Shown here in pieces: positions 13,580-61,398 of a DNA stretch of 64,000 bases. The notes under the pieces were generated by a model that saw only the letters and a program-made list of their open reading frames with translations, had not been told where the DNA came from and ran no database searches. Position 1 is the stretch's first letter; each line of letters opens with the position of its first letter. This DNA is from Draconibacterium aestuarii (lineage in GTDB: Bacteria > Bacteroidota > Bacteroidia > Bacteroidales > Prolixibacteraceae), in the NCBI GenBank assembly GCA_026671195.1, contig JAPOHD010000007.1:186001-250000 (forward strand). Direction: 5' to 3'. A program made the position numbers and the translations under genes.

Positions 13580-15718
13580 TTAGTCAAATAAATTGTAATA
13601 TCTCCCCATCCAATAGGGCAACAGAAAATAGGTTCCGCTTCTCTCCTCCATACCGTTCGCACCTGTATCGAATTGGCGGGGATTTGTATTCCAGCGCCAA
13701 ATACCACTTTCCGGAGTTGGAATTGGCTGTGTTGCCTGTCTTTTATTCGACCGATCGCTCAACCTGTCTTCCTGTAAATCCCAACGGTGACTATTTAACA
13801 TTGTCCAATTGATTAGATCAACAGGATATTGTTGGAGTTCTTCAAGTGCAATATGCAAATCACAATTTCTATTCAGTGCAATACTTGTAATGATGTTCCA
13901 AACCGGCATTCTGTCTGGTTGAGATACAGCCCAGGTTCGTTCCAGACTTTTTTTATACGTCGACCAATACTTATCTTGTTTTGCATAACGGTACAGGCTG
14001 TAATAAGAGAAATAAGTTAAAATATCGTCGGAATGACTATTTTCAAAAGGTCCGTACATTTTAGTCTGCAGCGAATTTGCAGCATAGCCGTGTTCATCAA
14101 TTAAATAGTGATAAGTTTTTTCAAACTTCGGATTACCTGTAATATAGTATGCTGCCTTTAAAAATGAAAGGATCTCAAGAGAGTAGAGACCTTTTTCATA
14201 AATCCAGTTTGCTGAATGATTTATTGAATCAGGATGCCAAACTCCCCACCTGGTTGGTTCACCATCGTAATCAATTAAATGAAAATCATTATCAATGATG
14301 TGGTTCATGGTTCGTTCTACCAGGTTCCTGATTCTTATCTTTTGATCATCGTCGGCCACCAGATCATAAAAAAGAGAAATAGCCAGCATGTGTCCCACAA
14401 TTTCGTCAGAGCTGGTATCGTCGAGCCATTGCCAGTTTTTGTCAGGAGATGGACGCCAAACCTTTGGATGTGGTGATTTAGATTGCAGCACACTATCGGT
14501 AGTAAGTGCATATGATCTTGCAGGAAGTCCCGGAATCCCGGTCACTGTTTCGAGTCTTTCCAAAGCTTCAAAAGTACGCATCGCGTATTCCCTGGCTTCC
14601 GGTTCTTTTGTTACTGCATACCTAAAGCACTCTGCAATAAGATAAGTTGCCGTCCACAAGCCATCATTATCCTGGTTTATTGTTTTGCTTGTCGACAAGT
14701 CTCCCGGAACGGATAGACGGGAAGCATTAACCAAACCGCGGCGGTTGTGTCGTTTTTGTACAACTTCCTCATAAATTGCCGCTTTTTGTTCCAGTGTCAT
14801 TTCCACATTCCGGAGCAGACTAATTCCTTTTGGTGTTGCCACCCAAACAGTGTGATCGTCAATTACAAGTACATCATTAACTTTATCATCGGGCAACCAT
14901 CTTTTCCCTAAATAATAATGCCAGGTTGAATCTTTCTTAATCAGCCCTTTATCGGTTCCCATCCAAAGCGCTTTGCCTGATGGATGAATAGTGGTTACCG
15001 GTCCGTACGGGAATCCGTCGGCACCCCGCCAAATCCAATGATTTCCTGCGCCGGAAATACACCCAACCGAATACATACTACCATAAATTATGTCGTTTCC
15101 ATTTTTTTGTTCGGCCAAACTAAAATACGTTCTTTTATTTCCGCTTGCCATCAGGTTATCGTCAAGATTTAACCATATTCCGTTTGCCCGCCTATACAAA
15201 CCATCGTTTGTCGCAAGCCACATTTCATCATCCTTACCTTGTTGTATGGCGGAAACACGAGCTCCTTTTGCAATTTTAGTATCTGTCCATTTTTCATCGT
15301 AAGTCAGCAATCCGTTTGTGGTACCAACATATAGTGTAGTTCCTGTTTTTAACAACGATAAGATTGTATCATGTTTGGCGCTTTCAGGCAAATAAATTCG
15401 TGTTCCAAAATCACTTCGTATTTCATTTTCGGCAGCAAGCCAGATGTGATTATTTTCATCCATACAAGCCGTTCTCCAGTTCTTTCCATTGGTTTTTCCC
15501 TGCCACTCCTTATTCTGCTTTGTATAAATACCATTACTACTTACCACAACTATCTCCCCATCAATATGAAAAAGTTTGATAACATTTTCACCTGATTCAT
15601 CAGGTAATTCTATATCAGATTTTATCTCCTGAAAATAGGTTTTGGTTTCTATTTGAGCACGGGCGGAGTTGGTTGCAAGTACAATTAAAAGAATAAATAT
15701 CAGGTCTTTAAAATTCAT
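13580..15718 (-). CDS. Secreted beta-propeller + alpha/alpha-toroid-like protein (paralogue 1 of 4)
   Basis: A 712-residue protein starting at the ATG at 15718, which gives a clean Sec signal ending NSARAQ; the frame runs back to 15751. Residues up to about 330 form a Reg_prop-like propeller with repeated blades such as LWMGTDKGL and VWVATPKGISLL. The C-terminal half is helical and shares motifs with the proteins at 40348, 42648 and 59128: DNDGLWTATYL, FRYAVT, DTSSDEIVGHM, IDYDGEPTRWGVWHP and the terminal LPYWMGRYYNLFD. Reg_prop blades normally occur in hybrid two-component sensors, but no membrane helix, kinase or DNA-binding part follows. The toroid-like half suggests a glycoside hydrolase or lyase fold, but I know of no characterised member. 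It follows the atypical DapA-like gene. Confidence 0.72.
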   Translation of the reverse strand: MNFKDLIFILLIVLATNSARAQIETKTYFQEIKSDIELPDESGENVIKLFHIDGEIVVVSSNGIYTKQNKEWQGKTNGKNWRTACMDENNHIWLAAENEIRSDFGTRIYLPESAKHDTILSLLKTGTTLYVGTTNGLLTYDEKWTDTKIAKGARVSAIQQGKDDEMWLATNDGLYRRANGIWLNLDDNLMASGNKRTYFSLAEQKNGNDIIYGSMYSVGCISGAGNHWIWRGADGFPYGPVTTIHPSGKALWMGTDKGLIKKDSTWHYYLGKRWLPDDKVNDVLVIDDHTVWVATPKGISLLRNVEMTLEQKAAIYEEVVQKRHNRRGLVNASRLSVPGDLSTSKTINQDNDGLWTATYLIAECFRYAVTKEPEAREYAMRTFEALERLETVTGIPGLPARSYALTTDSVLQSKSPHPKVWRPSPDKNWQWLDDTSSDEIVGHMLAISLFYDLVADDDQKIRIRNLVERTMNHIIDNDFHLIDYDGEPTRWGVWHPDSINHSANWIYEKGLYSLEILSFLKAAYYITGNPKFEKTYHYLIDEHGYAANSLQTKMYGPFENSHSDDILTYFSYYSLYRYAKQDKYWSTYKKSLERTWAVSQPDRMPVWNIITSIALNRNCDLHIALEELQQYPVDLINWTMLNSHRWDLQEDRLSDRSNKRQATQPIPTPESGIWRWNTNPRQFDTGANGMEERSGTYFLLPYWMGRYYNLFD

Positions 15719-15789
15719 AGTAAGATTTAAGTTTTTCTTTTGCAAAGCCATTGATTTCTGTTATTTCATAAGCAGTTGGTTATTTTTTA

Positions 15790-16698
15790 TCACTTGATTT
15801 TTAAGCTGTTTTCTATCTCAATAATTTTATCAATTAACCTGTCGGCTATCTCCTCGTGTACTCTGTCGAACTTAAAAATGGGTTTCCGAACATTTGGAGT
15901 TGGATAAATACCCTGTTTGAATAACAAGCGTTTAAAAAAATGAATGGAAATATCGAGGTGCTGGTTTGAAAATGCCAATACGGGTAGAATCTCATGGAAA
16001 AGCTTTTCTGCTTCACCTGTTCTTCCCTCCATAAAGTTTCTGTAAATGGTGGTATAAATACGATGCATTCCGGTGGGCATAAAAGCATGCACACCCCGTT
16101 TTAGTCCCTCTATCATTTGTGTAACAGCCCAACCTCCGCTAACATTTAACCGTCCCTGCGTTAGTTCCAGAATTCGGGAATATTTTACCCCTGCCGGTAC
16201 CGTTTCAATTTTCAGGCAACGAAAAGCATCTACTTCCTCAAACAAGCTACAAATCAATTCATCAGGCAAGCCATAACCCGACGCATCCCAATCCTGCAGC
16301 ATTATCATTTCGGGGTTGGTTTCTGCCAGAGAATAAAAGTGTCGTTTGAATTGTTGTTCACTTTCGAATGGAATTTGAAAAAGTACATTGTTACCCCCCA
16401 ACTGAATGTACTCTTTCAGCAGCTTTTTACTTCTGCTCTCATTGGTTTCGCCGGCACCGGCAATTACCGGCACTTTATTGCCGGCAAGCTCCAGAACCGT
16501 TGCAACCATTTTGATACGCTCAGATTCCGTTAACTTGTACACTTCTGATGCCATTGCAGGCACCAGAAATCCGGCAACTCCGGCTGTTAGGGCATAATCT
16601 ACATTTTTTTTCAATGCCTTTAAATCAACGGAATTGTCATTCAAAAATGGAGTATTAAGAACTGATACAATACCGTGTAAAGGATATAGCTCCTTCAT
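15790..16698 (-). CDS. Atypical DapA/NanA-superfamily (class I aldolase) protein
   Basis: A 302-residue protein of the dihydrodipicolinate synthase/N-acetylneuraminate lyase superfamily, whose members form a Schiff base between a lysine and a 2-oxo acid. The lysine is kept (Lys163 in CLKIETVP). Two hallmarks are not: the GTTGE loop is replaced by VPAMASE (46-52), and the YNxP motif with the proton-relay Tyr is replaced by MLQDWDASGYG (133-143). It has no signal peptide. It lies between the GH20/GH67-like gene and the propeller/toroid gene. It probably cleaves or makes a 2-keto-3-deoxy acid, but the changed active site makes the reaction unsure. Confidence 0.8.
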   Translation of the reverse strand: MKELYPLHGIVSVLNTPFLNDNSVDLKALKKNVDYALTAGVAGFLVPAMASEVYKLTESERIKMVATVLELAGNKVPVIAGAGETNESRSKKLLKEYIQLGGNNVLFQIPFESEQQFKRHFYSLAETNPEMIMLQDWDASGYGLPDELICSLFEEVDAFRCLKIETVPAGVKYSRILELTQGRLNVSGGWAVTQMIEGLKRGVHAFMPTGMHRIYTTIYRNFMEGRTGEAEKLFHEILPVLAFSNQHLDISIHFFKRLLFKQGIYPTPNVRKPIFKFDRVHEEIADRLIDKIIEIENSLKIK

Positions 16699-16756
16699 TT
16701 TTTATTGAATTATCAGAAATGCAAATTCATTTGTTTTTATATCGTTGTTTACCAAC

Positions 16757-19084
16757 CTATTTCTTTATCAGCCAAACATCCGACACATGCGACTGCTGTG
16801 TCCACCTAATGTTTGATTCTTCCGGCCGATCGAAAGTAACTTTTATAACTCCGTCGCGTGTTAAATGCTGTGTCACCACAAACTCTTTAAATCCACCAAT
16901 TTCTTTGTCGTATATTTCCGGTTCCAGTCGTTCTCCATCAACCCGCAAAAGGGCATCTCCCCTTCCCGAAACACGAATTAAGTAACGACCGTTAAAATCC
17001 AGGTCTTCGTATATTAATTCGGGCTGTGGCTGATAAAGTTGCGAAGAAAGTCTGGTTCTGGAATATCCACTATCCCACCAGGCAACATCACAGGCATCAT
17101 AAGAAGTAGTCAGTACGCTTGGTCCGGTTTCAATATTCGAAACATTATCGTAATAACTACCGGGTCCCGGATTCTCCCAGTTGCGAATAATTTCGAGCCG
17201 CTCAATTTTTTCTTCTTCTGTAGTCATCTTACTCACTTTTTCAAATTCGTCGGCCAACCACCAGCGGTTGTTGAGTGGGTAATTTACAAATTGCCAGATA
17301 CAACTTCGTTGTGAATTGGAAGCCTTGTATTTCTCCACATCAGTTTGATAGCCGCAAGATTCATACATATCATCGCACAATTTCTCTATTTTTTTTAGCA
17401 AATCAATATTTTTCGGATCGGTATCGGCACGGTTTACGATTTCCAAAGTCTGCTTGATTGCTTTATCGGCACCCATTTCACTGACTTTTGCCAGTATCTG
17501 ATATGCCTCCTTCTCAAGTCTTTCTTCGTAAATCTTTCTTCGGCGCTGGTAGGTGTCGTAATAAGCACGGGTAAGCAACATTTGCCAACGCCAGTTGCCA
17601 GCCAGTTGCGGATTTTCTTTTTCAAGTTTTTTCCAGAATTCAAGGTTAATTTCAATACCACCATTTGTTCTTACCGGGCCATTCCAATTTTGCTCCAGTG
17701 CCATTATACCATTTGCCACTTGTACCGCAAGTTTATCGCCAAAAAAGAACCGGCAATAATCTTCCATTATTTCCTGAGGTTCTGAGTCTATGTTCCAGCC
17801 CCGCATGCTCCAGATCACTTTGTTCACATCATCATGACAGCCATCGGAATAAGAAACAAATCCATCGGTAAAAGGCGCATAAGTGGCATGTATTTTCGCA
17901 TAATAATTTGGCATCGGATTTATACCTTCCCTGCCGTAAGTTAGCATGTATGCCTGATCCCAGTTAGTTACCGGGTAATCACAGCGAACATTATGCGTAA
18001 TATCGGGATAATGACGGTGTTTGTATTTTTCGGGTAAACGAAAACGCGTTTCTGAAATGGACGGGCTGCCTGGTCCTGATACCACACCTCTTAACCAGTC
18101 GGGTTGATGTTCTTTGAGGTAAGCATAAAAATAGTCTATTTTTTCGGCACTGAATCCCTGCAACGATATCCAGATTCCTGCGGTGGGATGATATCTCACC
18201 AAACGCTCCTGTAAATTCTTCAGAAATGGCATTACGTCGCGCGGATGGTTATGACCGGGATCACCACCCGGAAAAAATACATCATCAAGTTTGGGACACT
18301 CTTTGTAGAAATTATCGTAATATTCCAATCGTTTCTGGCGAGCCTCCTTATCCGTGAGATCGCAACCGGCAGGTGTCCAAACCCAATAAGCTATGCCGTA
18401 ATCAGCACAAATCTCGCTTACTTTCCTATTCATTTCATCGGGTGGAATCGGCATTAATTCGTTCTGTTTTTCCTCCAGGCCCGGAATCATTTCAATGGCA
18501 TTTGTACCAAAAACAATCAGATCACTTATGTACTGTTCGTATTGATCCACATTCCACGCATCAAGTGAATTATTTGTATTCCGGTATCCAAGCTGATGGC
18601 CCCTGATTAGTTGTTTTGGTGATGTAGCAAAATCGAGCGATGCATCAAACAACACTTTTTTACTACTGAGTTTTGCGGTACGTAAAAACTTTCCAACACC
18701 AAACATTGCTCCACGTTCGTCGGCGCCAACAATCCACACGGTATTTTTTTTGCCAACCGTTTCGATAAAAACACGATAACCTTCCGGTTTTGTTTCCGGG
18801 GCGTTTTCTTTTACTTCAGGAATACTTTTCCCTGCCAGCTGTTTCTCTCCAATCAAAACAATGGCCATGGTATTATTACTACTATCCCAACTACCGGTTT
18901 GTTTCCATACACTGTTGGTTCGTTTATAAATCTCCTCGCTTAAAACACGATAAAGTGTTTCATCAACCGGAGATTTAATATTTTCGGAAATCATTACGGA
19001 TGCTTTTGTTAAATCCAGTTCTTTGGCTTTTGCCTCAAAAATAACTGATACAAAAAGTATAAATAAGATTGAAAACCTCTTCAT
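16757..19084 (-). CDS. GH20/GH67-like secreted glycoside hydrolase of unassigned family
   Basis: A 775-residue secreted protein with a Sec signal (core FSILFILFVSVIF, then EAKAKE). The N-terminal domain looks like the zincin-like domain that precedes GH20, GH67 and GH115 barrels; YRVFIE and VGADERGAMFGVGKF at about 103-133 are typical. A TIM-barrel-like region follows from about residue 165 (IRGHQLGYRN). DDVFFPGGDPGHNHP recalls the HxGGDE motif of GH20, but the Glu is Pro. A beta-rich tail (RYLIRVSGRGDALLRVDGE) ends the protein. It may be an alpha-glucuronidase-like or hexosaminidase-like enzyme; the missing Glu argues against normal GH20 chemistry. It sits upstream of the DapA-like gene and downstream of the metallophosphoesterase. 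Confidence 0.6.
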   Translation of the reverse strand: MKRFSILFILFVSVIFEAKAKELDLTKASVMISENIKSPVDETLYRVLSEEIYKRTNSVWKQTGSWDSSNNTMAIVLIGEKQLAGKSIPEVKENAPETKPEGYRVFIETVGKKNTVWIVGADERGAMFGVGKFLRTAKLSSKKVLFDASLDFATSPKQLIRGHQLGYRNTNNSLDAWNVDQYEQYISDLIVFGTNAIEMIPGLEEKQNELMPIPPDEMNRKVSEICADYGIAYWVWTPAGCDLTDKEARQKRLEYYDNFYKECPKLDDVFFPGGDPGHNHPRDVMPFLKNLQERLVRYHPTAGIWISLQGFSAEKIDYFYAYLKEHQPDWLRGVVSGPGSPSISETRFRLPEKYKHRHYPDITHNVRCDYPVTNWDQAYMLTYGREGINPMPNYYAKIHATYAPFTDGFVSYSDGCHDDVNKVIWSMRGWNIDSEPQEIMEDYCRFFFGDKLAVQVANGIMALEQNWNGPVRTNGGIEINLEFWKKLEKENPQLAGNWRWQMLLTRAYYDTYQRRRKIYEERLEKEAYQILAKVSEMGADKAIKQTLEIVNRADTDPKNIDLLKKIEKLCDDMYESCGYQTDVEKYKASNSQRSCIWQFVNYPLNNRWWLADEFEKVSKMTTEEEKIERLEIIRNWENPGPGSYYDNVSNIETGPSVLTTSYDACDVAWWDSGYSRTRLSSQLYQPQPELIYEDLDFNGRYLIRVSGRGDALLRVDGERLEPEIYDKEIGGFKEFVVTQHLTRDGVIKVTFDRPEESNIRWTQQSHVSDVWLIKK

Positions 19085-19132
19085 TGATTTGTTTTTTATT
19101 AATGTGGACCTACCCGGTCCAGGTATAATTTT

Positions 19133-20044: not shown

Positions 20045-20050
20045 GTTACC

Positions 20051-21895: not shown

Positions 21896-21917
21896 AATCA
21901 AAATTTTATGGAATTTG

Positions 21918-26187: not shown

Positions 26188-26192
26188 CTGAT

Positions 26193-28097: not shown

Positions 28098-28132
28098 CGG
28101 TTTACTCTTGATTATTTTGGGTTATGTAGACA

Positions 28133-30463: not shown

Positions 30464-30503
30464 TATCAATGGTTTATACTATTAAATGCATAACAAAAAG
30501 TTA

Positions 30504-33074: not shown

Positions 33075-33105
33075 ATCGATTTAATTGTTAGGTATTTTAG
33101 AACGA

Positions 33106-33741: not shown

Positions 33742-33754
33742 CGTTCTGTCTCTC

Positions 33755-35907: not shown

Positions 35908-38900
35908 TCATTTTACCTGAAATAGTTTTATTGCAGGAATCTCTTGTTTTTCAATATCTGGTCCGGCATACTGCAATCTGAGGAACAAACCACCTCCCGC
36001 CTGAAAATATTTTAGCAGAATGGGATAGAATCCCTTTTCAAGATAAATTTTACCGGCTTTCTCCAGCTCGGCTCCATGCAAGCCATCGTGGTCAACAACC
36101 AGTTGATTATTTAGGTACAAACAAGTTCCATCATTCGAATTTATAAAGAACTCGTATTCTCCTGATTTGTCGATCTTAATTTCACCTTCAAAAAGCAGGG
36201 CGAATTCATCTTTTTTAGCATTAATTTTATCTAATCCACATTCGTAAACAATCCCCGACTTCTGATGTTCTATGGAAGAAAAATCAGGGAGTTTCGTCCA
36301 GACACCTTCGTAATAGTAATAACGTAATCCGTTAATTTCGGGATCGATAAAATTAATCGTATTTGTTTTTGTAAAACCGTTATTGTATCCTTCGGCTACC
36401 ATTTTTGCTTTAATCACTGTATTTTCAGCAATAAAAAACGGAGCTGTATACAAAGTTGATTTGTTATCCGGTTCCGAATTATTTAAGGTATAATAAATGG
36501 TTGCGTCTGCTACCGTCGATTTTATTGAGACTTTGACTGAGTCTCCTTTGTAAAGAGTTTTATCGCCCGGATAAATTAACGGTGTCGGTAAAACAGGCTT
36601 TGCCAACATTGATTTACAGTCTTCAGATAAAAATTGATATGTCCCGGAACTTACTTCAAACACAGCATTATTTCCTTCCATTTTAAGGAATCGGATTTGA
36701 TCGTTTCGTGAGACTGACTTTCCGCCTTCGGTTACAGAATCCCGGTTTTTAGCCAAAACATGCACGGCTGCAGTTGTATTGGCAGGAACAGTTACCTGCA
36801 GCAAATAATCATTGTTGTTCCAGTTCCATTCTGTTATAATATCGCCGTATAACGAAGGATAATTTGCCATAACAAAATTTAAACTTCGAACCGGGAAAGG
36901 TTTGATAATACTGTGTTTAAACCCGGGATTGTTATCGTCGGGAGCTATTCCGGCAAGATACTGATAAAACCACTGACAAACACTTCCAAACATGGGGTGG
37001 CTGTGTGAAGCATCGCCTTTCCAGGTTTCCCATATGGTTGTAGCTCCTTTTTCAATCATATAACCAAATCCCGGAAAATCGCGTTGTGCCATTATCGTAT
37101 AAGCAAGATCTGCTCTTCCAAAATCGGAAAGTACATCGAGTAATAATGGAGTAGCCAGAATTCCTGTGTCAAAATGAATTTTATTTTTGACTACATTTTC
37201 GATCAAACGCTTAAAAACGAATTCAGCATCATCAGGATTAGTAATTCCAAAACCAAGCGGAAAGATATTAGCTCCCTGCCTACCGATTGAATACGATGAA
37301 TTTTCGGTATTAAACCAGTTTGTATTTATCGTTTTTTGTGCATCCAAAGCAAGATTCTCAAAGTAATTTTTATCGGAAACTTTCTCTAAAACTGTAGCTA
37401 CTTTGGTCATTAAATCGCAACAGTAGAAATAATAACAGGTATTTACAAAATCTGCCGGAATCTCAACGGTTTCGGGAGGTACCCACTCTCCAAGCCCCTG
37501 GTCTCGTAATATTCCACCCTCATCTAATTCACTTGCCAGATAATCCATCCAGTGCAACATTCCCTGATAATGTTCTTCCAGAATACGAACATCGCCATAA
37601 TATTGGTACATATACCAGGGAATTATGGCATAGGCAGCGCCCCAACCTGTTCCGCCACCTCCATCCTGATAGGGTGTTGTATTGGGAACATAACCGGTTT
37701 TATGATTTTGGGCATCGCGTATATCGCGTAACCATTTGGTGTAAAACGTTGCCATATCGAAGTTGTAAATGGCTGCCTTTGCAGAAATCTGACCATCACC
37801 GGTGTATCCGCGACGTTCGCGGTGGGGACAATCGCTTGGAATGCCGCCATGCAAATTTCCGGTTTGTGTGGATTGGTAATTTTTAAGAATACGATTTAAC
37901 AAGGTATCCGAGCATTCAAAACTCCCGACGTTTTTTACATCTGTATGCACAACACGTCCTTCAATACTTTCAAGCGCAAATTCAGCCGGCGAACCACTCA
38001 CCTCAACATACCGGAATGCATGCCAGGTAAAACGAGGTTCCCAAGCTTCAGTACCTACTCCCTTTAAAATATAGGTATCGGTTTGTCCGTAAGCCGGGCC
38101 CAATTCCTCAATAAACCGAAGTTTTATTTCTGTCCCCCTTTCACCTGATATTTTTATCCGTGCCCAACCCGAAAACATTTCGCCAAAATCATAACGATAT
38201 ACTCCCTTATCAACCTCGCTAATCGAGACTGGTTGAATCGTTCTTGTTACCCGGTCAGGAGGAGACATTTGTGCTTTTAATGTTCCTGTTGGCGGGCGTG
38301 CGACAGTTGCGTTTTCCCAGTTCGAGTCATCGAAACCAGGCTCATTCCAACCTTCCTGCTCTAATCGGGCATCGTAAATTTCGCCGCTGTGCAATCCGTT
38401 GTATTTTACAGGACTGACAGAGTTTTTCCAGGTTTCATCACTTGTAATCCATTGTCTGGTTCCATCCTCAAATACAATTTCAAACTGAGCAATAAAACGC
38501 GGAGTATCGTACCATAACGATTTATCATTTGGGCGATCGGCCTGAATATACCAGCCGTTTCCAAGAATCACTCCCAATGCATTTTCCCCCTCATGCACAT
38601 CATTGGAAATATCGTAAGTCTCATATAAAACCGTCGTGGTCATATTCCCAATCCTGGGCTCGTCCCATTTCTCAACATCCCGTCGGTCATAATTTGTTTG
38701 GTTGGGAGAAAGCACGTGATCGCCCACTTTTTGTCCGTTTATATACAACTCATAGTAACCTAACCCGGAGATAAAAACGCGCGCCTTTTTAATTTTCTTT
38801 GAGAACCGGACCTCTTTGCGGAACAGCGGTGAAGGTAATTTCCATGCTTCTTTTGAGAGGAACTCCGAAGCACCGATCCACTTACTTTGCCAGTCTTCCT

Positions 38901-39336
38901 TTTTCAAAAGTCCCATCTCCCACTTTGCCGGCTGACTCCATTTCATCACTTTTCCGTTTTCACCCCAAACCTGAACTCTCCAAAATACGCTTGTTCCCGA
39001 GTTCAATGAATTTCCCCGGTATTCTATTTGAATTGATTGATCTGATTCTATTTTCCCGGAATCCCAGAGATCGGGTGTTTCACTCTCAAGCAACGCTATA
39101 CTAGTTGCTGCCTGTATGCGGTATGCTGTTTGCGCCGCTCCCCGTTCTTTGCTTTTCATTTTCCACGAAAGGTGAGGATTAAGTACATCTATTCCAATCG
39201 GATTATTGAGATATTCGCAACGCAGGTCGATCGTTTCCGGTTCTTCTTTTGACGATTGACAGGAAGAGAGAATTAGTATAATCAATATAATAGATAGAAG
39301 CTGAAACTTGTATGTTACCATCGGTTGCGTTGTCAT
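35908..39336 (-). CDS. GH78 alpha-L-rhamnosidase lipoprotein with C-terminal chitobiase-like and PA14 domains
   Basis: A 1142-residue GH78 protein that releases alpha-L-rhamnose. The lipobox is LILSSC (Cys26). The N-terminal beta-sandwich regions include ARVFISGLGYYELYINGQKVG, the (alpha/alpha)6 barrel includes PSDCPHRERRGYTGDGQ and ATTIWETWKGDASHSHPMFG, and the closing beta domain includes LPANTTAAVHV-like sequence. Beyond the usual end, about residues 905-985 form a chitobiase/hexosaminidase C-terminal (Fn3-like) domain (TIYYTLNNSEPDNKSTLYTA). Residues of about 995-1140 form a PA14 domain (EFFINSNDGTCLYLNNQLV), which often binds carbohydrate. The ATG at 39321 is an alternative start. It lies 21 bases after the metallophosphoesterase gene and is the last gene of the run from the AraC gene. 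Confidence 0.92.
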   Translation of the reverse strand: MTTQPMVTYKFQLLSIILIILILSSCQSSKEEPETIDLRCEYLNNPIGIDVLNPHLSWKMKSKERGAAQTAYRIQAATSIALLESETPDLWDSGKIESDQSIQIEYRGNSLNSGTSVFWRVQVWGENGKVMKWSQPAKWEMGLLKKEDWQSKWIGASEFLSKEAWKLPSPLFRKEVRFSKKIKKARVFISGLGYYELYINGQKVGDHVLSPNQTNYDRRDVEKWDEPRIGNMTTTVLYETYDISNDVHEGENALGVILGNGWYIQADRPNDKSLWYDTPRFIAQFEIVFEDGTRQWITSDETWKNSVSPVKYNGLHSGEIYDARLEQEGWNEPGFDDSNWENATVARPPTGTLKAQMSPPDRVTRTIQPVSISEVDKGVYRYDFGEMFSGWARIKISGERGTEIKLRFIEELGPAYGQTDTYILKGVGTEAWEPRFTWHAFRYVEVSGSPAEFALESIEGRVVHTDVKNVGSFECSDTLLNRILKNYQSTQTGNLHGGIPSDCPHRERRGYTGDGQISAKAAIYNFDMATFYTKWLRDIRDAQNHKTGYVPNTTPYQDGGGGTGWGAAYAIIPWYMYQYYGDVRILEEHYQGMLHWMDYLASELDEGGILRDQGLGEWVPPETVEIPADFVNTCYYFYCCDLMTKVATVLEKVSDKNYFENLALDAQKTINTNWFNTENSSYSIGRQGANIFPLGFGITNPDDAEFVFKRLIENVVKNKIHFDTGILATPLLLDVLSDFGRADLAYTIMAQRDFPGFGYMIEKGATTIWETWKGDASHSHPMFGSVCQWFYQYLAGIAPDDNNPGFKHSIIKPFPVRSLNFVMANYPSLYGDIITEWNWNNNDYLLQVTVPANTTAAVHVLAKNRDSVTEGGKSVSRNDQIRFLKMEGNNAVFEVSSGTYQFLSEDCKSMLAKPVLPTPLIYPGDKTLYKGDSVKVSIKSTVADATIYYTLNNSEPDNKSTLYTAPFFIAENTVIKAKMVAEGYNNGFTKTNTINFIDPEINGLRYYYYEGVWTKLPDFSSIEHQKSGIVYECGLDKINAKKDEFALLFEGEIKIDKSGEYEFFINSNDGTCLYLNNQLVVDHDGLHGAELEKAGKIYLEKGFYPILLKYFQAGGGLFLRLQYAGPDIEKQEIPAIKLFQVK

Positions 39337-39357: not shown

Positions 39358-40329
39358 CTACTTCAACTTAAATTCTAAATATCTGTCTGAAATTGCCGGT
39401 CTTAAATATTTTTTCATTCTTTCCGGAAATCCTACCTCAAAAGGTGACGGGCCAACCCATTCCGTTTTTTTGCCTTTTATTTTGATGTAACCTTGAGTTG
39501 ACACCTCAACGACTCCGAATAAGGGTTCTTTAAAAGGTGCTGTATATTTTATCCACCTGTAATTTTCATCCACCGCCTCGCTGTAACGAATATGCTGGTA
39601 ATCATCACCCAGCCAGTGATAGGCCATAGACGTAATCGTAACGTAATGTATTCCGTTAATTTCTTCCGCATAATCCCAATGCGAATGCCCGTTAAAGCAG
39701 GCAATCACTTTATTCGCAGGATTCGCTGCACTGTGATTTTCCAGAATCTGTTGTATTTGTTTGTAATTCTCAACTCCATAGTTTTCGTTGGCCCCTTTAT
39801 ACATCTGCAAACCCTGATGCGAAAAAATGATAACGGGATGAGTAATTTCTTCCAGGTCTTGTTTTAACCATTCCACCTGTTCAGGCCCAATGTACTGCTT
39901 ATACCCTTTTGCTTCCTGACTTTTTTTGTCGTTGCCGTCCAAAACAATCATATGAAATCCGTTTTTATTGAACGAATAGTATGACTTTGTCATATGACGA
40001 TAATCAACTGCAGCCTGACGCGAGGTACCTCCATCCATTTCGTGGTTGCCAATTACATGGTATTTATCACCATCAAACGAATTCCAGATGTCAAAATACG
40101 GAGCACACTGCTCTTTGGGAATTCCAAAATCGCCTAGTTCGATAATAAAATCGGGTTTTGCGCTATTCATACTATCAATAAATGTTTGAATCCGATATTC
40201 CGAATCGTGCATGGTGGGAAGATGGACATCGGAACATATTCCAAAGCTTATTTTGTCGTACGACTTTTTTTCGGTGCAACCTGATAAAGCAATAACCAAT
40301 AAGATAAATAAATAATATACTCCTTTCAT
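39358..40329 (-). CDS. Metallophosphoesterase lipoprotein
   Basis: A 323-residue lipoprotein (lipobox ALSGC, Cys18) with the full set of calcineurin-like motifs: CSDVHLP (Asp34, His36), ELGDFG, VIGNHEMDG, IFSHQGL and NGHSHWDYA. It should hydrolyse phosphate esters at the cell envelope using two metal ions. It sits between the second propeller/toroid lipoprotein and the GH78-PA14 gene, with 18-21 base gaps. It is similar in layout to the Sec-exported enzyme at 19133, including HW after the last GH motif, so the two are probably distant paralogues recruited to separate operons. Confidence 0.9.
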   Translation of the reverse strand: MKGVYYLFILLVIALSGCTEKKSYDKISFGICSDVHLPTMHDSEYRIQTFIDSMNSAKPDFIIELGDFGIPKEQCAPYFDIWNSFDGDKYHVIGNHEMDGGTSRQAAVDYRHMTKSYYSFNKNGFHMIVLDGNDKKSQEAKGYKQYIGPEQVEWLKQDLEEITHPVIIFSHQGLQMYKGANENYGVENYKQIQQILENHSAANPANKVIACFNGHSHWDYAEEINGIHYVTITSMAYHWLGDDYQHIRYSEAVDENYRWIKYTAPFKEPLFGVVEVSTQGYIKIKGKKTEWVGPSPFEVGFPERMKKYLRPAISDRYLEFKLK

Positions 40330-40347: not shown

Positions 40348-42606
40348 TTAGTTTTCAATAATTCCCAGATAACGCGCCATCCAGTAGGGCCACAACCAAA
40401 ATACAGGCTCCCGAACCTGGGCCGGGTTACCGGATGTTGCTGCCCACGGATTCTTATCCCAACGTACCGTGGCTCGTTCGCTTGGTAATGGCAGCGCAGA
40501 AATCTGAACTTCTTCAAAAATTGGAGTGCGGACAATTTGTACATCCTCGCGCAACGTATGATCTATTCTCCAATCAACCAAATCTAAAGGAGTATCCTTT
40601 AAGAAGTTGATGGTTTGTTCTACATTTACTTTTTTGCCCATGCAAATTGTATAGGCAAGGTTATTTATCAGGTTTTCTCCTGCAGTTTGTTTGCTCATCC
40701 ATTCTTCGGCAAGATCTTCATAAAAAGCTTTTAATTCAGGATTCTTCTCGTATTTCAACAAAATTGGAAACAAATAACCTTCCATTGTCAGGTCGAAATA
40801 AATTTGCCAGGCCGGATTCTTTTTGTTTAACAAAGAGGCATTTTTAAGGTAATTTTCTTCATTAATCAAACGTTGATATTCCTTTTCGTATTTTTCTTCG
40901 CCGGTAATGCCTGCAGCGAACTTTAAAAAGGCCAGCAATTCAAACGAATTAAGGAACTTTTCCGACGACCAGTCCGGATCGCCATTTAACTGCGAAGAAG
41001 ACCAAACTCCCCAGCGGGTATGCTTTCCGTCAATATCAACCAGGTTATAATCGTTCTTAATCATTGCATCCATTATACCGGCCACATGCGAACGGATCTT
41101 GGCTTGATCTTCAGGTTGAGCAGCGTATTCGTAAAAGAAAAAATAGCTCATCATGTGTCCACACATTTCGTCGCTGCTGGTATCTCCTTTCCAAAGCCAC
41201 TTTCCATCCGTAGTTTTTCGCCATCTTTCTTCAACGGGCTTAAACCTTGGATCTCTTACTGCTGCATCTGCCAACTGTTGTTCTGTATACGTACGATTCG
41301 GATCGTGAACATGTTTCCAATCTACCGGAACAATTGTACGGGCAAATAAATCCTCGGTGCCGGTTACTTCCCGCAACTTGGTCAAAAATCCAAAAGCTTT
41401 ACGTGCTTTTATCAGGGCATCTTCATCTTTGGTAACAGCATACCTAAAACTTTCCATGGCCAGGTAACCTCCTGTGTATTCTCCATCGTTATCGTCATCA
41501 GAGTTTCGCCAGGTAGAAGTGTCACCGGGAACTTCCAAACGCAAATTCCCACAAATCCACGGTTCACGAATATGTTTTGTCATCAGCTCGTTGTAAAAAT
41601 AATGCTGTTTTTCTGCCAGGGTTATTATTTTGCGCTTAATGGCACTTACACCGTTGGAAGTAGCCACCCAGGCGTTCCCTTCTTTATCGAATGCGACATC
41701 GTTTACGTGGTTGTCGGTCAGCCAACGCTTGCTAAAACGAAGCGAATGCGAACCATCTTTTTCAAAACGAACCACACCAACACCAGTTCCTATCCACATC
41801 ACTCCATCGGGCGACTGGCTAACGGAATTTACAAAGATGGAAGGAATTCCTTCTTTGGTCGTTAAATTTTTTACCAGCTTATTCTCTTTTCTGATGGATA
41901 CTCCACCCATTACACCTGCCCAGATCTCGTTTCCGGGAGCAAACGAGAGTGCCGATGCATAGCAGGTAATCAACTCATCGGTATTCTGAAAAAGTGTTGA
42001 TGTTCCTTTATTACATAAATAAACTCCGGCATCGGTGGCTACCCATAAACTTCCTTTTCCATCCGTAATGGCATCACGCACTGATCGGGCAATTTTATAG
42101 TCCTGGTAATCCCATCTGGTTCCGTTTGCCTGCCAGATACCCAAAGGGCCAAGTGCATAAACCTCGTTCTCATTTGCACAAATTACAGAAACAGGTTGTT
42201 TCACACCTTCCTCTTTTGAAAGCTTATTATTTGAATAGCGGTAAACACCATTCCAGGTTCCCATTACAATGTCACCGTTATTAATAACCCTTACAGAATA
42301 GGCAGGTCCCCGGTCTTCGCCGGTAATCACAGGTTTCCATTCTCTTGAATCCTTGCTTTTGCAAAACATCCCTGACGCAGTTGCGATCCAAACATTGGAG
42401 GCATTATCAACTGCAATGTTGCGTACTTCATTGTCACCTTTGTTATCACTTATAATATATGCGTCATGATATTCCTGAACAAATGGTTTATCGGAATAAA
42501 CGACTGCATCCGGTTGTTGAGATTGTTTTGTTTGTTCAATGTTATTATTACAGGAGATAACAAAACTCAACACTAAAATAATTGACAATAATTTTAAATA
42601 TTTCAT
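40348..42606 (-). CDS. Beta-propeller + alpha/alpha-toroid-like lipoprotein (paralogue 2 of 4)
   Basis: A 752-residue lipoprotein (lipobox FVISC, Cys19). A PFVQEYHDAY segment opens the mature domain, followed by about seven Reg_prop-type blades up to about residue 330 (NVWIATASGMF, LWVATDAGVYLC, MWIGTGVGVVRF, AWVATSNGVSAI). The helical C-terminal half carries DDNDGEYTGGYLAMESFRYAV, DLFARTIVP, WLWKGDTSSDEMCGHM, LVDIDGKHTRWGVW and a final WPYWMARYLGIIEN. It is closely similar along its whole length to the next upstream gene, so the two arose by tandem duplication. The acidic and His residues of SSDEMCGHM and the Trp-rich DG..T.WGVW motif are candidates for a catalytic site; no function is known to me. 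Confidence 0.75.
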   Translation of the reverse strand: MKYLKLLSIILVLSFVISCNNNIEQTKQSQQPDAVVYSDKPFVQEYHDAYIISDNKGDNEVRNIAVDNASNVWIATASGMFCKSKDSREWKPVITGEDRGPAYSVRVINNGDIVMGTWNGVYRYSNNKLSKEEGVKQPVSVICANENEVYALGPLGIWQANGTRWDYQDYKIARSVRDAITDGKGSLWVATDAGVYLCNKGTSTLFQNTDELITCYASALSFAPGNEIWAGVMGGVSIRKENKLVKNLTTKEGIPSIFVNSVSQSPDGVMWIGTGVGVVRFEKDGSHSLRFSKRWLTDNHVNDVAFDKEGNAWVATSNGVSAIKRKIITLAEKQHYFYNELMTKHIREPWICGNLRLEVPGDTSTWRNSDDDNDGEYTGGYLAMESFRYAVTKDEDALIKARKAFGFLTKLREVTGTEDLFARTIVPVDWKHVHDPNRTYTEQQLADAAVRDPRFKPVEERWRKTTDGKWLWKGDTSSDEMCGHMMSYFFFYEYAAQPEDQAKIRSHVAGIMDAMIKNDYNLVDIDGKHTRWGVWSSSQLNGDPDWSSEKFLNSFELLAFLKFAAGITGEEKYEKEYQRLINEENYLKNASLLNKKNPAWQIYFDLTMEGYLFPILLKYEKNPELKAFYEDLAEEWMSKQTAGENLINNLAYTICMGKKVNVEQTINFLKDTPLDLVDWRIDHTLREDVQIVRTPIFEEVQISALPLPSERATVRWDKNPWAATSGNPAQVREPVFWLWPYWMARYLGIIEN

Positions 42607-42647: not shown

Positions 42648-44942
42648 TTATTCAATAACACCTATGTATTTCCCCATCCAGTATGGCAGCAGCCAAAAAA
42701 CGGGTTCTCTTTCGACGCGTCCGCTTCCACCTTTAATCTCCCATGGATTTTTATCCCACCTTACAGTAGCCCTTTCGCTTGGAGGTAATAAAATACTGGT
42801 TTGAACATCTTCAAGTACCGGATAACGGAATGTTTTTATATCTTCTCTTTTTGTCTGATCAATATTCCAATCAATCAAATCAAGCGAAACATCTTTTAAG
42901 AAGAAGATCGATTTATCCACATCATAACTTTTGCCCCTCAGGTAAGTGTACATAAAGTTATAAAACGGACTCTCATCTTTTCTGAAATTCTGGTACCAGG
43001 TATCAAGAATATTATTGTATTGCTTTTTCAGATTTTCATCCTCTTCGTATTTAAACAGAGGAGGATAGGTAAGAAAAAGCAATTCGGGATCAATATAAGT
43101 GGTCCATGCTGCGTTTGAGGTTATTATCCTTTTGGCATTTTCAAGATAGCCCTCTTCGTTGATCATTCGTAAATATTCTTTCTGATATTTTTCTTCGCCG
43201 GTGAAATGGTAGGTTAGTTTAAGATACGAAAGCAGTTCCAGGGAATTTATTCCCTTTTCAGGTGCCCAGTCAGGTGTTCGGTTCAATTTATCAGGCGACC
43301 ATACTCCCCAGGTCGTGTGCTTCCCGTCAACATCAACCAGGTTATAATCGTTCTCTATCAGATTATCGATTATCTTTTTTACATGGTTCCTTACCAGTTC
43401 TTTTTCTGCTTCGTCGGCAACGTACTCATAATAAAAATAGTAGGCAGCCATATGCCCGCACATCTCATCGCTGCTGGTATCGCCTTTCCATATCCATTTC
43501 CCATCGCTTGATTTGTGCCAGCGTACTTCAACGGATTTAAACCTGGCCTGATTCACCATAACCTCAGCAAGTTGTTTCTCGCTATATGTCCTGTTACCAT
43601 CAAAAACGCGTTCCCCCCAATCCGGAGGAACAATTGTTCTTGCAAAAAAGCCTTTGGTTTCTGTTATCGTTTGCAGTTTAATAAGAAAATCAAGAGCTTT
43701 CCGTGCCTTTACCCTGGCATCTTTGTTTCCGGTTGCGGCATATCTCATGGCTTCCATAGCCAGGTACATAGCAGTATACTGCCCGTCATTATCATCATCA
43801 ATGCTCATCGACGTAGTTGTATCTCCTTCTACATTCAAGGCTGTTAAGTGAGCAATCCACGGTTCACGGATATGCCTTCTCATCAGGATATCATAAAAAT
43901 AACTCTCCTTATCGGCCAGTGTCATATCCTTTTTCTTAATGGCACTAACACCATTTGCAGTTGCTATCCATGCATTTCCCTCTTTATCAAAGGCTACTTC
44001 GCGAACATTATCGTCCATCAACCACCTTCTGCTGAATCTTAAAGAATGATTACCATCTTTATTTAATCTGACAACTCCAACCTCTGTTCCAACCCACATT
44101 GTCCCGTCTGGCGATTTTGAAATGCTGTTAACATTTACTGAAGGGATGCCATCCTCTGGGGTAAGCGTTCTAATTTTTTCGGCACCTTTACGAACAGTCA
44201 CACCTCCAAGCCCGCCGGCCCACAGATTTCCTTCTGAATCGAAACCTAAACCTTTCAGATAACAGCTTATGAGTTCTTTATCATCTTGATACAATACTGA
44301 TTTACCGTTACTGCAGTGGTATAGCCCAACATCGGTAGCAATCAATAAACCACCCATGCTATCCGACTTTGCATCGCGAACAGAACGGGCAATCGTATAA
44401 TTCTCCGATTTCCAGGTTTCTCCGATATACAACCATATTCCTTCAGGTCCTAAAGCATAAATACCCTCTTCGGCAATACATATTTGCGATACAGGAGTTT
44501 TTAGCCCCTCAACTTTAGAAAGCTTATTTTTTTCGAATTTGTATACTCCGTCCCATGTTCCCATCCAGACATTACCTTTACCATCAATTGTAACGTCAAA
44601 GGAAGGACCTTTCTGCTCCCCTGTTATTACAGCTTCCCATTCACGCGAGTTTATTTCTTTTTTAAATATCCCGTCACCTGTGGCTATCCATACATTTTCA
44701 TTATTGTCAACAGCAATACTACGTACGTTATTCTCGGCATTGTCGGTACTTACAACATAACCATCATGATACTCCTGAATAAAAGGAGCATCTTTATAAG
44801 TGTCAACAGACGAAGACTCTTCTTCCTTCTTAGATTCCTGTTTACAGGAAACGAAACTAACAACCAATAAAAAGATAAATATTTGTAAAAATGATTTCGT
44901 GAAATACTTATAAATCCTGGTTATTTTCAGGTTTGATCTCAT
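42648..44942 (-). CDS. Beta-propeller + alpha/alpha-toroid-like lipoprotein (paralogue 3 of 4)
   Basis: A 764-residue lipoprotein from the ATG at 44942 (lipobox VSFVSC, Cys33); the frame continues to a TTG at 44969 that I consider unlikely. The layout matches the neighbour at 40348: PFIQEYHDGY, propeller blades (NVWIATGDGIF, LWAGGLGGVTVR, MWVGTEVGVVRL, AWIATANGVSAI), then the helical domain with DDNDGQYTAMYL, GFFARTIVP, WIWKGDTSSDEMCGHM, LVDVDGKHTTWGVWSP and LPYWMGKYIGVIE. The 41-base gap to paralogue 2 and the same order suggest co-transcription. It follows the DUF1349-like gene. The role is unknown; a surface glycan-processing or binding protein is the most natural reading in this operon. 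Confidence 0.75.
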   Translation of the reverse strand: MRSNLKITRIYKYFTKSFLQIFIFLLVVSFVSCKQESKKEEESSSVDTYKDAPFIQEYHDGYVVSTDNAENNVRSIAVDNNENVWIATGDGIFKKEINSREWEAVITGEQKGPSFDVTIDGKGNVWMGTWDGVYKFEKNKLSKVEGLKTPVSQICIAEEGIYALGPEGIWLYIGETWKSENYTIARSVRDAKSDSMGGLLIATDVGLYHCSNGKSVLYQDDKELISCYLKGLGFDSEGNLWAGGLGGVTVRKGAEKIRTLTPEDGIPSVNVNSISKSPDGTMWVGTEVGVVRLNKDGNHSLRFSRRWLMDDNVREVAFDKEGNAWIATANGVSAIKKKDMTLADKESYFYDILMRRHIREPWIAHLTALNVEGDTTTSMSIDDDNDGQYTAMYLAMEAMRYAATGNKDARVKARKALDFLIKLQTITETKGFFARTIVPPDWGERVFDGNRTYSEKQLAEVMVNQARFKSVEVRWHKSSDGKWIWKGDTSSDEMCGHMAAYYFYYEYVADEAEKELVRNHVKKIIDNLIENDYNLVDVDGKHTTWGVWSPDKLNRTPDWAPEKGINSLELLSYLKLTYHFTGEEKYQKEYLRMINEEGYLENAKRIITSNAAWTTYIDPELLFLTYPPLFKYEEDENLKKQYNNILDTWYQNFRKDESPFYNFMYTYLRGKSYDVDKSIFFLKDVSLDLIDWNIDQTKREDIKTFRYPVLEDVQTSILLPPSERATVRWDKNPWEIKGGSGRVEREPVFWLLPYWMGKYIGVIE

Positions 44943-44971
44943 AGATGTAGAATTAACCTTATTCTTCAAGT

Positions 44972-45571
44972 TTATTCATGTTCTTTATATTCCGGCCACT
45001 CGCACGAACCCATTTTAAAATCAGAAAAGTTTGCACGGAAGTTTGATGTTAAGGGACTGCAGGCATAAACTCCCACGCTTGCTTTATCGAAATATTTATG
45101 CATATGCAACATGCGCATTTGTTTAAAATCTTTTCCATCAACTGAATTTTCTATATAAAAATCCTGCCCACGGCGGCTTAACCTGTACCACATTTCAGAA
45201 ACTCCTGCCGGAATATCGGTGGTTGCCCAATCGGAATAACCCAGATTGGTAACTACTGCCCCCAGCCGGGCAAAATCTTCATTTTCATATTCAACTGAGA
45301 TTTTCACCCAATTTTCACTGTCTATATACATTAACACTCCGCACTGATCGTATAAATGAACGGCATCTTTAAATTCTGTTTTCACCTGAAATGAGAAATC
45401 TCCTTCAATGTCTGTTAAAAACGCCGGGGCATTGTCATTCTGAAAACCATAATAAGTTCGCTGCCACAAATCGGTGCCCGGTTCTGTTTCAATCGATAAT
45501 TTATCATTTTCTATCTCAAATTTCTGTGGCTGGTTCAGCCACCGATAATCGTTAAAAAATAAATTTCCCAT
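44972..45571 (-). CDS. DUF1349-type beta-sandwich protein without signal peptide
   Basis: A 199-residue protein with no export signal. It resembles the concanavalin-like DUF1349 family: LSIETEPGTDLWQRTYYG, DQCGVLMYIDSENWVKISVE and FYIENSVDGKDFKQMRML are typical strands. Members are thought to bind or act on carbohydrate, but no enzymatic activity is established. It lies 10 bases after the GH92 gene and 29 bases before the paralogue 3 ATG, inside the operon. A related, exported DUF1349-like domain forms the tail of the beta-helix protein at 21918. Being cytosolic, it may act on an imported sugar. Confidence 0.8.
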   Translation of the reverse strand: MGNLFFNDYRWLNQPQKFEIENDKLSIETEPGTDLWQRTYYGFQNDNAPAFLTDIEGDFSFQVKTEFKDAVHLYDQCGVLMYIDSENWVKISVEYENEDFARLGAVVTNLGYSDWATTDIPAGVSEMWYRLSRRGQDFYIENSVDGKDFKQMRMLHMHKYFDKASVGVYACSPLTSNFRANFSDFKMGSCEWPEYKEHE

Positions 45572-53280: not shown

Positions 53281-53305
53281 AATACACTTTTTTAACCTTT
53301 CGGAT

Positions 53306-54466: not shown

Positions 54467-54502
54467 CATCCTTACCTTAATCAATAAAACAAATTTACTT
54501 AG

Positions 54503-56002: not shown

Positions 56003-56019
56003 TTATAAAATTGAGTATT

Positions 56020-57105: not shown

Positions 57106-57137
57106 TTTTCAGTTCTAAACATTTAACCTAGACTGTT

Positions 57138-59096: not shown

Positions 59097-59127
59097 TGAA
59101 ATTAATTCCTAAATCAAAAATCTTAAA

Positions 59128-61398
59128 ATGACATTAAATCGATTTATAATCTTTTCGATCCTTCTAACACTTTTTAGTTGTACTCAAAAAACCGAGGTAA
59201 AAACGGCCACTGCAACCAATGCTAAAGGACAGGTGTTTCACGCCGACAAACCCTATATTCAGGAATACAGCATTAGATATTACCTTTCAGAAGATCAAAC
59301 AAACCAAAAAATTTCAGCGGTTTCTGCCGACCGAAACAATCACATTCATGTACTGAGTAACCATGAAATTCTGGTACCCGATAACGGACAACTTTTTTAT
59401 TCGGGACAACTAATAAGGGATTTGGCTTATACGCCAATGCTGGCAAAAAAAATTTCAGCTATTACCACGTATAAAAATCATACGGTTTACCTCGATAACA
59501 AACATGTATTTAGCAATTCCTGGGCCGGAAAAATTCAAATTGATCATGGATTACCAAAAGCTCAATTCCTGGCAGCCGGAAAAGATTTTCACTTTCTGGT
59601 TTCGGATGGAAACAATCTGGTTTATGTGAATGCAGATGGAGAACAACTATGGAGTGGAAAATTCGCCGATTTAAAAGAATTGAAGTACCACGAAGCAAAA
59701 AACAGGTTCATCCTGGTTAGTTCGAAAGAAGTTGCCGAATTTCTTCCTTCAGGAAACATAAAAAGCATTTATAAGGGGGCAGCAATTACATGTGCCCAAC
59801 CACTTTCACAAACGGATAAGATAGCCATTGGTACAACTAACGGATACCTGATTTATCCGGAGAATAAACGGATCACGAAAGTTCCTTGTCCAGAAATTAC
59901 ATGTATTAATGAAATTGAAGGAGAACTCTGGTTTGGATCTGCCTTTGGTGCTTTTAAGTTAAACAATGATGGAAAATACCGTTACTACGCGGGCGAACGC
60001 TGGTTACCCGGAAACGAGGTTTCGGCTCTGGCAAAGGGTCCAGAATCAAGTATACTGGTAACAACCAATAAAGGTTTGGCGAAAATCACTTTCGAAGAAA
60101 TGACTTTGGAAGAAAAAGCACTATTCTATGAAAAACAAGTCCGGGAAAAGAACATCCGTTACGGATTCAACTGTTGTGTAAGCCAACTTCCAAACGGATA
60201 CTCAACAGCCACAATGACAGCACAGGCCAGTGATAATTTGTGGACCGGGATGTACCTGGCCAGTCAACTGTTCAGGTATAAAGTTACCGGCGACGAAAGT
60301 GCCAGGCAAAATGCATACGAAGCCTTTGAAGCTATGGAAAGATTGCACACGATAACCGGAATTGATGGTTTATTTGCACGAGGTTTTGAACGCGATTATA
60401 AAGTGGAAAACACAAAAACAGAAGGCTGGGAAGCCCGAGAATTAAAAACCGGAAGTCCGGCAACCATGTGGCTGCGCGGAAATGATCACCCAAACTGGAC
60501 ATGGCGATCAACAGTTAGCAGCGACCAAACTGTTGGGCAGGTTTTTGCTTTAACATTAATACTGGAACTGGTTGAAGATGAAGACTGGAGACACAGAGCC
60601 TTAAAATACCTCGATGATTTGATGGGATACATTGTTGAAAACGACATGTATATTATTGATGTTGACGGAGAACCAACATTATGGGGAAAATGGAATCCTG
60701 ATTATGTAAACGGCTTTCCTACAAATGTTGGTGACAGAAGACTTTATTCGTCCAATATTATTGCTTTTCTGCAAACAGCTTACAAATATACGGGCAAAGA
60801 AAAATATAAAGACAAAGCTTATGAATTGATGAATGAATACGGCTACCTGGAAAACCTGGTTCGCCCGATTTCAGAAATAGGACCATCGAATGCCGATGAA
60901 TGGAGTAAGCACCTGTCGGAAGAATGGAACCACTCTGACGATGAAATGTACTTTTTAGCTTACTGGAGCCTTTACCCCGATGCTTTTACCCCGGAGTTAA
61001 AAACCAAATTTGAAGCGGCTATAAAAGATCACTGGGAAATAGAACGACCGGAGAAAAATGCACTTTGGAATTTTTGTTATTCCATGACCGGTGCCAAAGA
61101 TTTCGATTTGGACGAGTCGATCGAATTCCTGCAACAGTATCCGCTCGACCTAAGACATTGGGGCATGAAAAATTCGCAACGCCAGGACGTTGAATATCTT
61201 CCCGACAACTTTCGCGGGCAAACAACAAAAGAACTTCTGCCACTACAGGAAATACCTCTTTACCGTCACAACGGACAAATTTTCAAGTTAGACTGTGAAG
61301 GCAACGGAAGTTCATTAGTCAGCGCCGGCGACACCTGGCTTCTTCCCTACTGGATGGGACGTTACCTGGGAGTTATAAGTGCGCCTCAACCGAAATAA
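59128..61398 (+). CDS. Beta-propeller + alpha/alpha-toroid-like lipoprotein (paralogue 4 of 4, divergent)
   Basis: A 756-residue lipoprotein (lipobox LTLFSC, Cys18). It begins PYIQEYSIRYYLSE like paralogues 2 and 3. Its propeller blades are degenerate: WIGT-type signatures are mostly lost, with LWFGSAFGAFKL the clearest blade. The helical half still aligns: SDNLWTGMYLASQLFRYKVTG, GLFARGFE, IIDVDGEPTLWGKWNPDYVN and LPYWMGRYLGVIS. The shared SSDE..GH motif has become SSDQ..GQ (60517-60540), so if those residues are catalytic this copy may be inactive or have changed chemistry. It follows the FG-GAP gene by 31 bases and precedes the YdjC deacetylase gene. Confidence 0.7.
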   Translation: MTLNRFIIFSILLTLFSCTQKTEVKTATATNAKGQVFHADKPYIQEYSIRYYLSEDQTNQKISAVSADRNNHIHVLSNHEILVPDNGQLFYSGQLIRDLAYTPMLAKKISAITTYKNHTVYLDNKHVFSNSWAGKIQIDHGLPKAQFLAAGKDFHFLVSDGNNLVYVNADGEQLWSGKFADLKELKYHEAKNRFILVSSKEVAEFLPSGNIKSIYKGAAITCAQPLSQTDKIAIGTTNGYLIYPENKRITKVPCPEITCINEIEGELWFGSAFGAFKLNNDGKYRYYAGERWLPGNEVSALAKGPESSILVTTNKGLAKITFEEMTLEEKALFYEKQVREKNIRYGFNCCVSQLPNGYSTATMTAQASDNLWTGMYLASQLFRYKVTGDESARQNAYEAFEAMERLHTITGIDGLFARGFERDYKVENTKTEGWEARELKTGSPATMWLRGNDHPNWTWRSTVSSDQTVGQVFALTLILELVEDEDWRHRALKYLDDLMGYIVENDMYIIDVDGEPTLWGKWNPDYVNGFPTNVGDRRLYSSNIIAFLQTAYKYTGKEKYKDKAYELMNEYGYLENLVRPISEIGPSNADEWSKHLSEEWNHSDDEMYFLAYWSLYPDAFTPELKTKFEAAIKDHWEIERPEKNALWNFCYSMTGAKDFDLDESIEFLQQYPLDLRHWGMKNSQRQDVEYLPDNFRGQTTKELLPLQEIPLYRHNGQIFKLDCEGNGSSLVSAGDTWLLPYWMGRYLGVISAPQPK

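Follow-up and report, generated by a model that had tools for sequence, protein, structure and literature searches.

Four proteins encoded in the window (i.e., the whole 64,000-nucleotide stretch of Draconibacterium aestuarii DNA that was analysed) combine a propeller of the Reg_prop type with a helical C-terminal half predicted to form an (alpha/alpha)6 toroid, and on balance they are probably exported, mostly lipid-anchored hydrolases acting on carbohydrates, with the toroid as the catalytic domain and the propeller as an accessory. A carbohydrate-active enzyme is favoured on several grounds, namely the fold prediction, the links by profile, the leaders, and the invariant Asp and Arg residues, as well as the slower evolution of the toroid, the existence of a clade in which the toroid stands alone, and the many enzyme genes nearby. 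We infer catalysis, hydrolysis, the roles of individual residues, and the substrate from this evidence, and hydrolysis is weakly preferred over lyase or epimerase chemistry. The proteins probably constitute a family that is new within a known class of folds and unusual in its domain partner.

The four open frames, named A to D here, were found at the expected window coordinates (Table 1) and, as proposed in the initial annotation, have one layout. All six pairs were matched by BLASTP with E values of at most 9e-59 in a four-sequence database, which is far beyond chance, and the toroid halves have three motifs in common: a first motif around SSD (SSDEIVGH in A, SSDEMCGH in B and in C, and SSDQTVGQ in D), a second of the form D.DG..T.WG.W (DYDGEPTRWGVW, DIDGKHTRWGVW, DVDGKHTTWGVW, and DVDGEPTLWGKW in A to D, respectively), and a C-terminal one (PYWMGRYY, PYWMARYL, PYWMGKYI, and PYWMGRYL, in the same order). 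Judged from their sequences, A, B, C, and D are homologues, with 54.5% identity between B and C and 24–35% in the remaining five pairs. A signal peptide or lipobox had been ascribed to each protein, and by eye a lipobox-like Cys ends the leaders of B, C, and D and an ordinary signal peptide precedes A; read in this way, the leaders point to export of all four, and three of the four would be lipid-anchored. The genes are spread over three gene runs, again as first described, with A in a minus-strand run (9838–24872), B and C in a second minus-strand run that begins after a gap of 205 bases (25078–52165), and D within a plus-strand run starting at 53440.

Table 1. Coordinates of the four proteins, their domains, and selected neighbouring genes in the window
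Feature	Coordinates	Strand	Remarks
Protein A	13580..15751	-	723 aa; signal peptide; propeller ~14798-15649, toroid ~13583-14797
Protein B	40348..42606	-	752 aa; lipoprotein-like leader; member modelled with AlphaFold2
Propeller of B, residues 39-328	41623..42492	-	single, 7-bladed; AlphaFold2 secondary structure, Foldseek match 4a2l
Toroid of B, residues 329-752	40351..41622	-	(alpha/alpha)6, predicted; two AlphaFold2 models, inner/outer from helix order
SSDE of B, residues 477-480	41167..41178	-	start of inner helix 2
Protein C	42648..44969	-	773 aa; lipoprotein-like leader; in tandem with B; toroid ~42651-43922
Protein D	59128..61398	+	756 aa; lipoprotein-like leader; toroid ~60103-61395
GH78 alpha-L-rhamnosidase with PA14	35908..39336	-	in the B/C run
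Metallophosphatase	39358..40329	-	downstream of B; relatives in 10/49 loci
DUF1349 protein	44972..45571	-	relatives in 12/49 clustered loci
GH92	45582-47900	-	upstream of C
GH78	47905-50649	-	upstream of C

For the N-terminal half, about seven blades of the Reg_prop type had been proposed. The blade type was borne out by Pfam, in which Reg_prop was the sole family above its cut-off in A, B, and C, and by Foldseek, in which the full-length model of B (AlphaFold2 with 45 relatives; pLDDT 92.2, pTM 0.89) ranked Reg_prop sensors first (4a2l, E 2.1e-14 over 365 columns). The strand order of this model gives seven four-stranded blades with the ring closed by the strand at residues 42–50, so that the blade count holds for B, the one model from which it was taken; D had no Pfam match at E ≤ 1, and its propeller is assigned by alignment because Pfam recognises none of its blades. 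Seven blades cannot be present in every propeller-bearing member, because some have a short part before the toroid (~198 residues in L137 and L122, and ~163 in L138 and L123). Reg_prop blades normally form the sensor of hybrid two-component systems, with two propellers in each. The proteins described here are like such sensors (BT4663, 4a2l; BT4673, 3ott) in blade sequence and N-terminal fold, and both are extracytoplasmic, but they have a single propeller and carry a C-terminal toroid in place of the sensor's kinase parts; Pfam found no Y_Y_Y, HisKA, HATPase, or regulator domains in A–D. PorZ, a Reg_prop-type propeller protein without a kinase, is a possible precedent for such propellers outside sensors, and its NCBIfam profile matched C and B over the Reg_prop blades of the propeller half only, far below the cut-off (44.5 and 30.3 of 260 bits, respectively).

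Foldseek also matched the propeller of B to virginiamycin B lyase (2qc5, E 8.5e-12), as would be expected if the propeller were catalytic as in that lyase and the toroid were the accessory domain. We consider this highly improbable and rejected the propeller as catalytic domain, as its conserved columns are mainly blade-forming and far fewer than those of the toroid: over 44 rows, 22/287 propeller columns were at least 90% conserved (mostly Gly, Trp, and Thr of the blades plus the R294-W295-L296 loop), compared to 76/424 toroid columns, and toroid-only relatives exist that have no propeller. The toroid was likewise the more conserved half in 372/372 distant pairs, and the identities of the two halves were correlated (r 0.97 over 946 pairs, with the leader included in the N-terminal part); these comparisons used 44 of 46 rows, with L009 and the cut-off L042 row dropped. 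Under the preferred hydrolase reading, the propeller would stay attached permanently as an accessory domain, shaping the cleft or binding the glycan, as it is constant in its clade and has no conserved surface residues except in one loop.

The C-terminal half had been called toroid-like, and no characterised member was known for the proteins; both statements are consistent with our results. Modelled alone, this half of B reached a pLDDT of 93.1 and a pTM of 0.93, and the helix order in both B models reads as six inner and six outer helices; by this order, the inner helices were assigned to residues 374–392, 478–494, 544–568, 603–619, 646–656, and 735–746. Domains built as such helical rings often cut or reshape sugars. 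Foldseek gave no match to the C-terminal half at E ≤ 0.001; the best matches were epimerases (best E 3.7e-3, TM 0.45), and the 50 best rows were mostly cellobiose/GlcNAc-2-epimerases, GH146, GH88, GH76, GH8, GH9, and GH48. Together, the models support the toroid fold class with no family assigned. Neither Pfam nor NCBIfam matched the C-terminal halves of A–D at E ≤ 1, and two PDB sequence searches found nothing significant (best E 0.29 and 0.7). The best reading is that the family is undescribed as judged against Pfam, NCBIfam, and PDB sequences, in which some recent CAZy families may lack entries.

Remote relationships were sought with hhalign, using comparison profiles of 29 GH88, 29 GH127, and 23 AGE (GlcNAc/cellobiose 2-epimerase) fragments. 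A 39-row toroid profile gave 91.1% for GH127, 88.7% for AGE, and 21.5% for GH88 in local mode and 89.0, 84.0, and 6.1 in global mode, while a 46-row profile gave 88.3, 79.1, and 35.4 (local) and 82.5, 77.4, and 3.1 (global). The three families scored 94–97% against one another in both modes. Five control families (GH38, a putative SusC family of ~1100 aa named by length only, DHDPS, metallophosphatase, and SSF) scored at most 0.4% against the toroid profile, their alignments being smaller (4–13 rows vs 23–29 in the test families), and four reversed-profile comparisons scored at most 0.3%. GH78 and GH92 are toroids as well and scored 0.1% each against the toroid profile (0.5% at the most against AGE), which means that some true relatives escape this test. 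At the level of sequence profiles, these scores show a remote link of the toroid to two enzyme families, GH127 and AGE. The initial annotation had pointed to GH88/GH105 for comparison, which stood as regards the toroid class, but GH88 itself was weak (3–35%) and GH127 and AGE were the closest by profile.

Membership was considered and rejected for GH127 and AGE, and appears unlikely for GH88. The unsaturated glucuronyl hydrolases of GH88/GH105 are toroids too and gave weak Foldseek matches; they use a catalytic Asp pair, to which an Asp-based site here would be similar. GH88 had no Pfam match in A–D in addition to its low hhalign scores. The beta-L-arabinofuranosidases of GH127/GH146 include the best profile link (91%) and some of the Foldseek matches (GH146), and the SSDE motif aligns beside the YTLHK stretch of GH127, which we take to touch the substrate; the local alignment ends before the GH127 Glu. 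GH127 enzymes have a conserved Cys site with a catalytic Glu, whereas the family here is without a widely conserved Cys (only one toroid column had Cys in at least 20 of 73 rows, with 32), and A–D had no match to PF07944 at E ≤ 1. The toroid of L009, a further copy in the same genome, matched PF07944 below the cut-off (E 0.048; 13.1 of 24.9 bits). For AGE, the cut-off of PF07221 was not reached.

The closeness to AGE bears on a further reading, in which the toroid is an enzyme other than a hydrolase, i.e., a polysaccharide lyase or an AGE-like sugar epimerase/isomerase. We regard it as unlikely, although epimerases provide the best Foldseek matches (TM ~0.45) and, with AGE (89%), one of two strong links by profile, R423 (73/73 toroids) and Y741 would suit a uronic-acid lyase, and DHDPS-family and HpaI-family aldolases are encoded nearby. 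AGE epimerases have a catalytic His pair and are known mostly from inside the cell, whereas the proteins here have exported leaders and a propeller, and no His pair is kept across all clades: the best-kept His residues, H345 and H484, were found in 66/73 and 58/73 rows, respectively, and H484 in 0/8 toroid-only rows.

Conservation was then mapped over 73 complete, non-duplicate frames, whose proportions are not frequencies because the second-phylum loci were hand-picked from the match list. Among 44 positions examined, K333 (in an outer helix), R423, S477, D479, G527, and T530 were invariant in 73/73 toroids. D524 was kept in 63/64 propeller-bearing rows, 5/8 toroid-only rows, and the single toroid-FGE fusion (1/1), D688 in 64/64, 5/8, and 1/1, and Y741 in 63/64, 8/8, and 1/1, respectively; D526 was kept in 4/8 toroid-only rows. 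In the proposed hydrolase, D479 of the SSDE motif would be the likeliest acid/base residue, with D524 and D688 assisting in the propeller-bearing clade, and R423 may hold the sugar by an acidic group. The active site would lie at that end of the ring from which loops lead into the inner helices. In a set of 39 diverse toroids, conservation was higher for inner helices than for outer ones (0.47 vs 0.38; one-sided p 8e-7, with columns and sequences not independent), and 36 of the top 45 conserved columns fell in inner helices or their entry loops, where 32 were expected from length. Mean conservation had no excess in loops entering inner compared to outer helices (0.35 vs 0.36) and was equal at the N- and C-ends of the inner helices (0.47 each). 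Twenty charged or amide columns were conserved to at least 80%; of these, 17 fell in the inner-entering loops or the first four inner-helix residues, which make up 231/428 columns (~11 expected), and one in the outer helices; a narrower definition of the mouth, with limits set post hoc, held 9/20 against 5 expected (p 0.035). We take this pattern of polar columns as modest support for the active-site end of the ring.

The count of four is correct for the window, but the genome (6.37 Mb, 69 contigs) holds nine C-terminal-half copies (eight listed, with the ninth taken as L009): four in the window, one 4.2 kb to its right (L093:4193-6322), and four on contig C64. L009 (1348-3300, on C64) encodes a toroid followed by an FGE-sulfatase domain, without a propeller. 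To the right of the window (L093:4193-9759), the fifth copy is followed by a kinase with Reg_prop, Y_Y_Y, HisKA, and HATPase domains, so that sensor-type and toroid-linked propellers are neighbours. In wider searches, a full-length profile matched 172/296 genomes of the phylum, covering propeller columns only beyond the first 12 listed matches; because the full-length matches mostly covered propeller columns among the matches listed, the C-terminal-half profile was adopted. With this profile (some of the proteins searched had themselves gone into the propeller and toroid profiles), the family was detected in 42/120 sampled genomes of the window's family, with up to 10 copies per genome, and in 7/395 genomes sampled from the window's phylum. 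In the phylum to which G514, the genome carrying L050, belongs, it was detected in 32/199 sampled genomes at E ≤ 1e-5, 16 of them at E ≤ 1e-30. We infer that the phylum of G514 differs from that of the window, as every genome listed for it was new to the sampling. The 34 family loci include Algoriphagus, Maribellus, Mariniphaga, Draconibacterium, and Telluribacter. On plasmids, tblastn with B matched 6 records, with the best places inside the propeller.

Among the 73 complete frames, 64 were propeller-bearing, i.e., had an N-terminal part that matched the propeller profile, 8 were toroid-only (L133 was counted here because it had no such match), and one was the FGE fusion. The toroid-only rows all came from the phylum of G514, with a lipobox-like leader seen by eye in 6/8, and formed one clade in the tree (100/100), a pattern for which a single gain or loss of the propeller suffices, L009 apart. 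Proteins A, B, C, and D were on separate branches, with C sister to a group containing B, and the placement of L009 is unsure because the tree joins several long branches, that of L005 with that of L009 being one case. In the phylum of G514, two toroid-only genes adjoin related genes that are 60% identical (L126:2089-3057 and L127:10160-11245), and Pfam assigned the neighbour at L126 to the family 2 glycosyltransferases; these neighbours hint at a different role in that phylum.

The conserved toroid residues could serve binding alone, and a non-catalytic role was weighed, in which the proteins are glycan-binding or sensing lipoproteins with a toroid that is an enzyme fold in a degenerate state. 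The match of the propeller to ligand sensors, the Reg_prop histidine kinase beside the fifth copy, the number of copies per genome (up to 10), and the modest support for an active-site mouth would all fit this role. It is nonetheless quite improbable in our judgement, given that several charged residues are invariant across all 73 toroids, that constraint is stronger in the toroid than in the propeller, and that a toroid-only form exists.

Recurrence of the family in glycan loci, as initially suggested, was evident from its GH78, GH92, and GH38 neighbours over 49 loci (34 family loci, the window, and 14 fetched stretches). Neighbour clusters were found for GH78 at 19 loci, BNR2/YdjC at 14, DUF1349, DHDPS, and GH92 at 12 each, AraC at 11, metallophosphatase at 10, and GH38 at 5, counts that are descriptive because many contigs were short, several genomes were close kin, and there was no background rate. 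The sugar-acid aldolases nearby belong to the DHDPS and HpaI families. Genes of the B type and the D type lie within ~5 kb of each other at L042, L045, L046, L047, and L095, which suggests that the two types act on a common substrate. If the proteins are hydrolases, the paralogues would divide linkage specificities in a rhamnose- and mannose-type acidic glycan, possibly a phosphate-bearing one.

Several other features of these loci were observed. A GH92/GH38 alpha-mannosidase run on the minus strand (26193–34738) also encodes a GmhA-like isomerase, a fusion of PfkB (rfaE-like) with HAD, and a ROK kinase, and may be a heptose-type sugar route, as read from NCBIfam matches below the cut-off (GmhA-like, 167 of 209 bits; rfaE-like, 128.5 of 345 bits). 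In Telluribacter (L046 and L047), the B homologue has relatives of the PfkB-HAD fusion immediately upstream. A minus-strand frame of 676 aa (20051–22081), which overlaps the 21918 frame by 164 bases, had no Pfam match at E ≤ 1. BNR_2 sialidase-like proteins are encoded at 11388–12509 (minus strand) and 56011–57105 (plus strand), and their relatives recur at family loci in other genomes.

No description of a Reg_prop-toroid protein was found in the literature searched, which left most subscription journals outside it. A more specific proposal, which we hold to be rather doubtful, is that a single capture of a sensor-type propeller gave a toroid enzyme a fixed specificity module, and that the resulting family of glycoside hydrolases or lyases, a new one, expanded to as many as 10 copies per genome and specialised for a phosphate-bearing glycan of bacterial type (rhamnose, manno- or heptose-type sugars, and 2-keto-3-deoxy acids). 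More generally, should the toroid prove to be an enzyme, the proteins would establish a family that is multi-copy in environmental Bacteroidota and in an apparent second phylum, and that is visible to Pfam through its Reg_prop blades only, or invisible. A propeller of the sensor type would then have been reused within an extracellular enzyme, and the unexplained steps of these GH78/GH92 loci would become testable.
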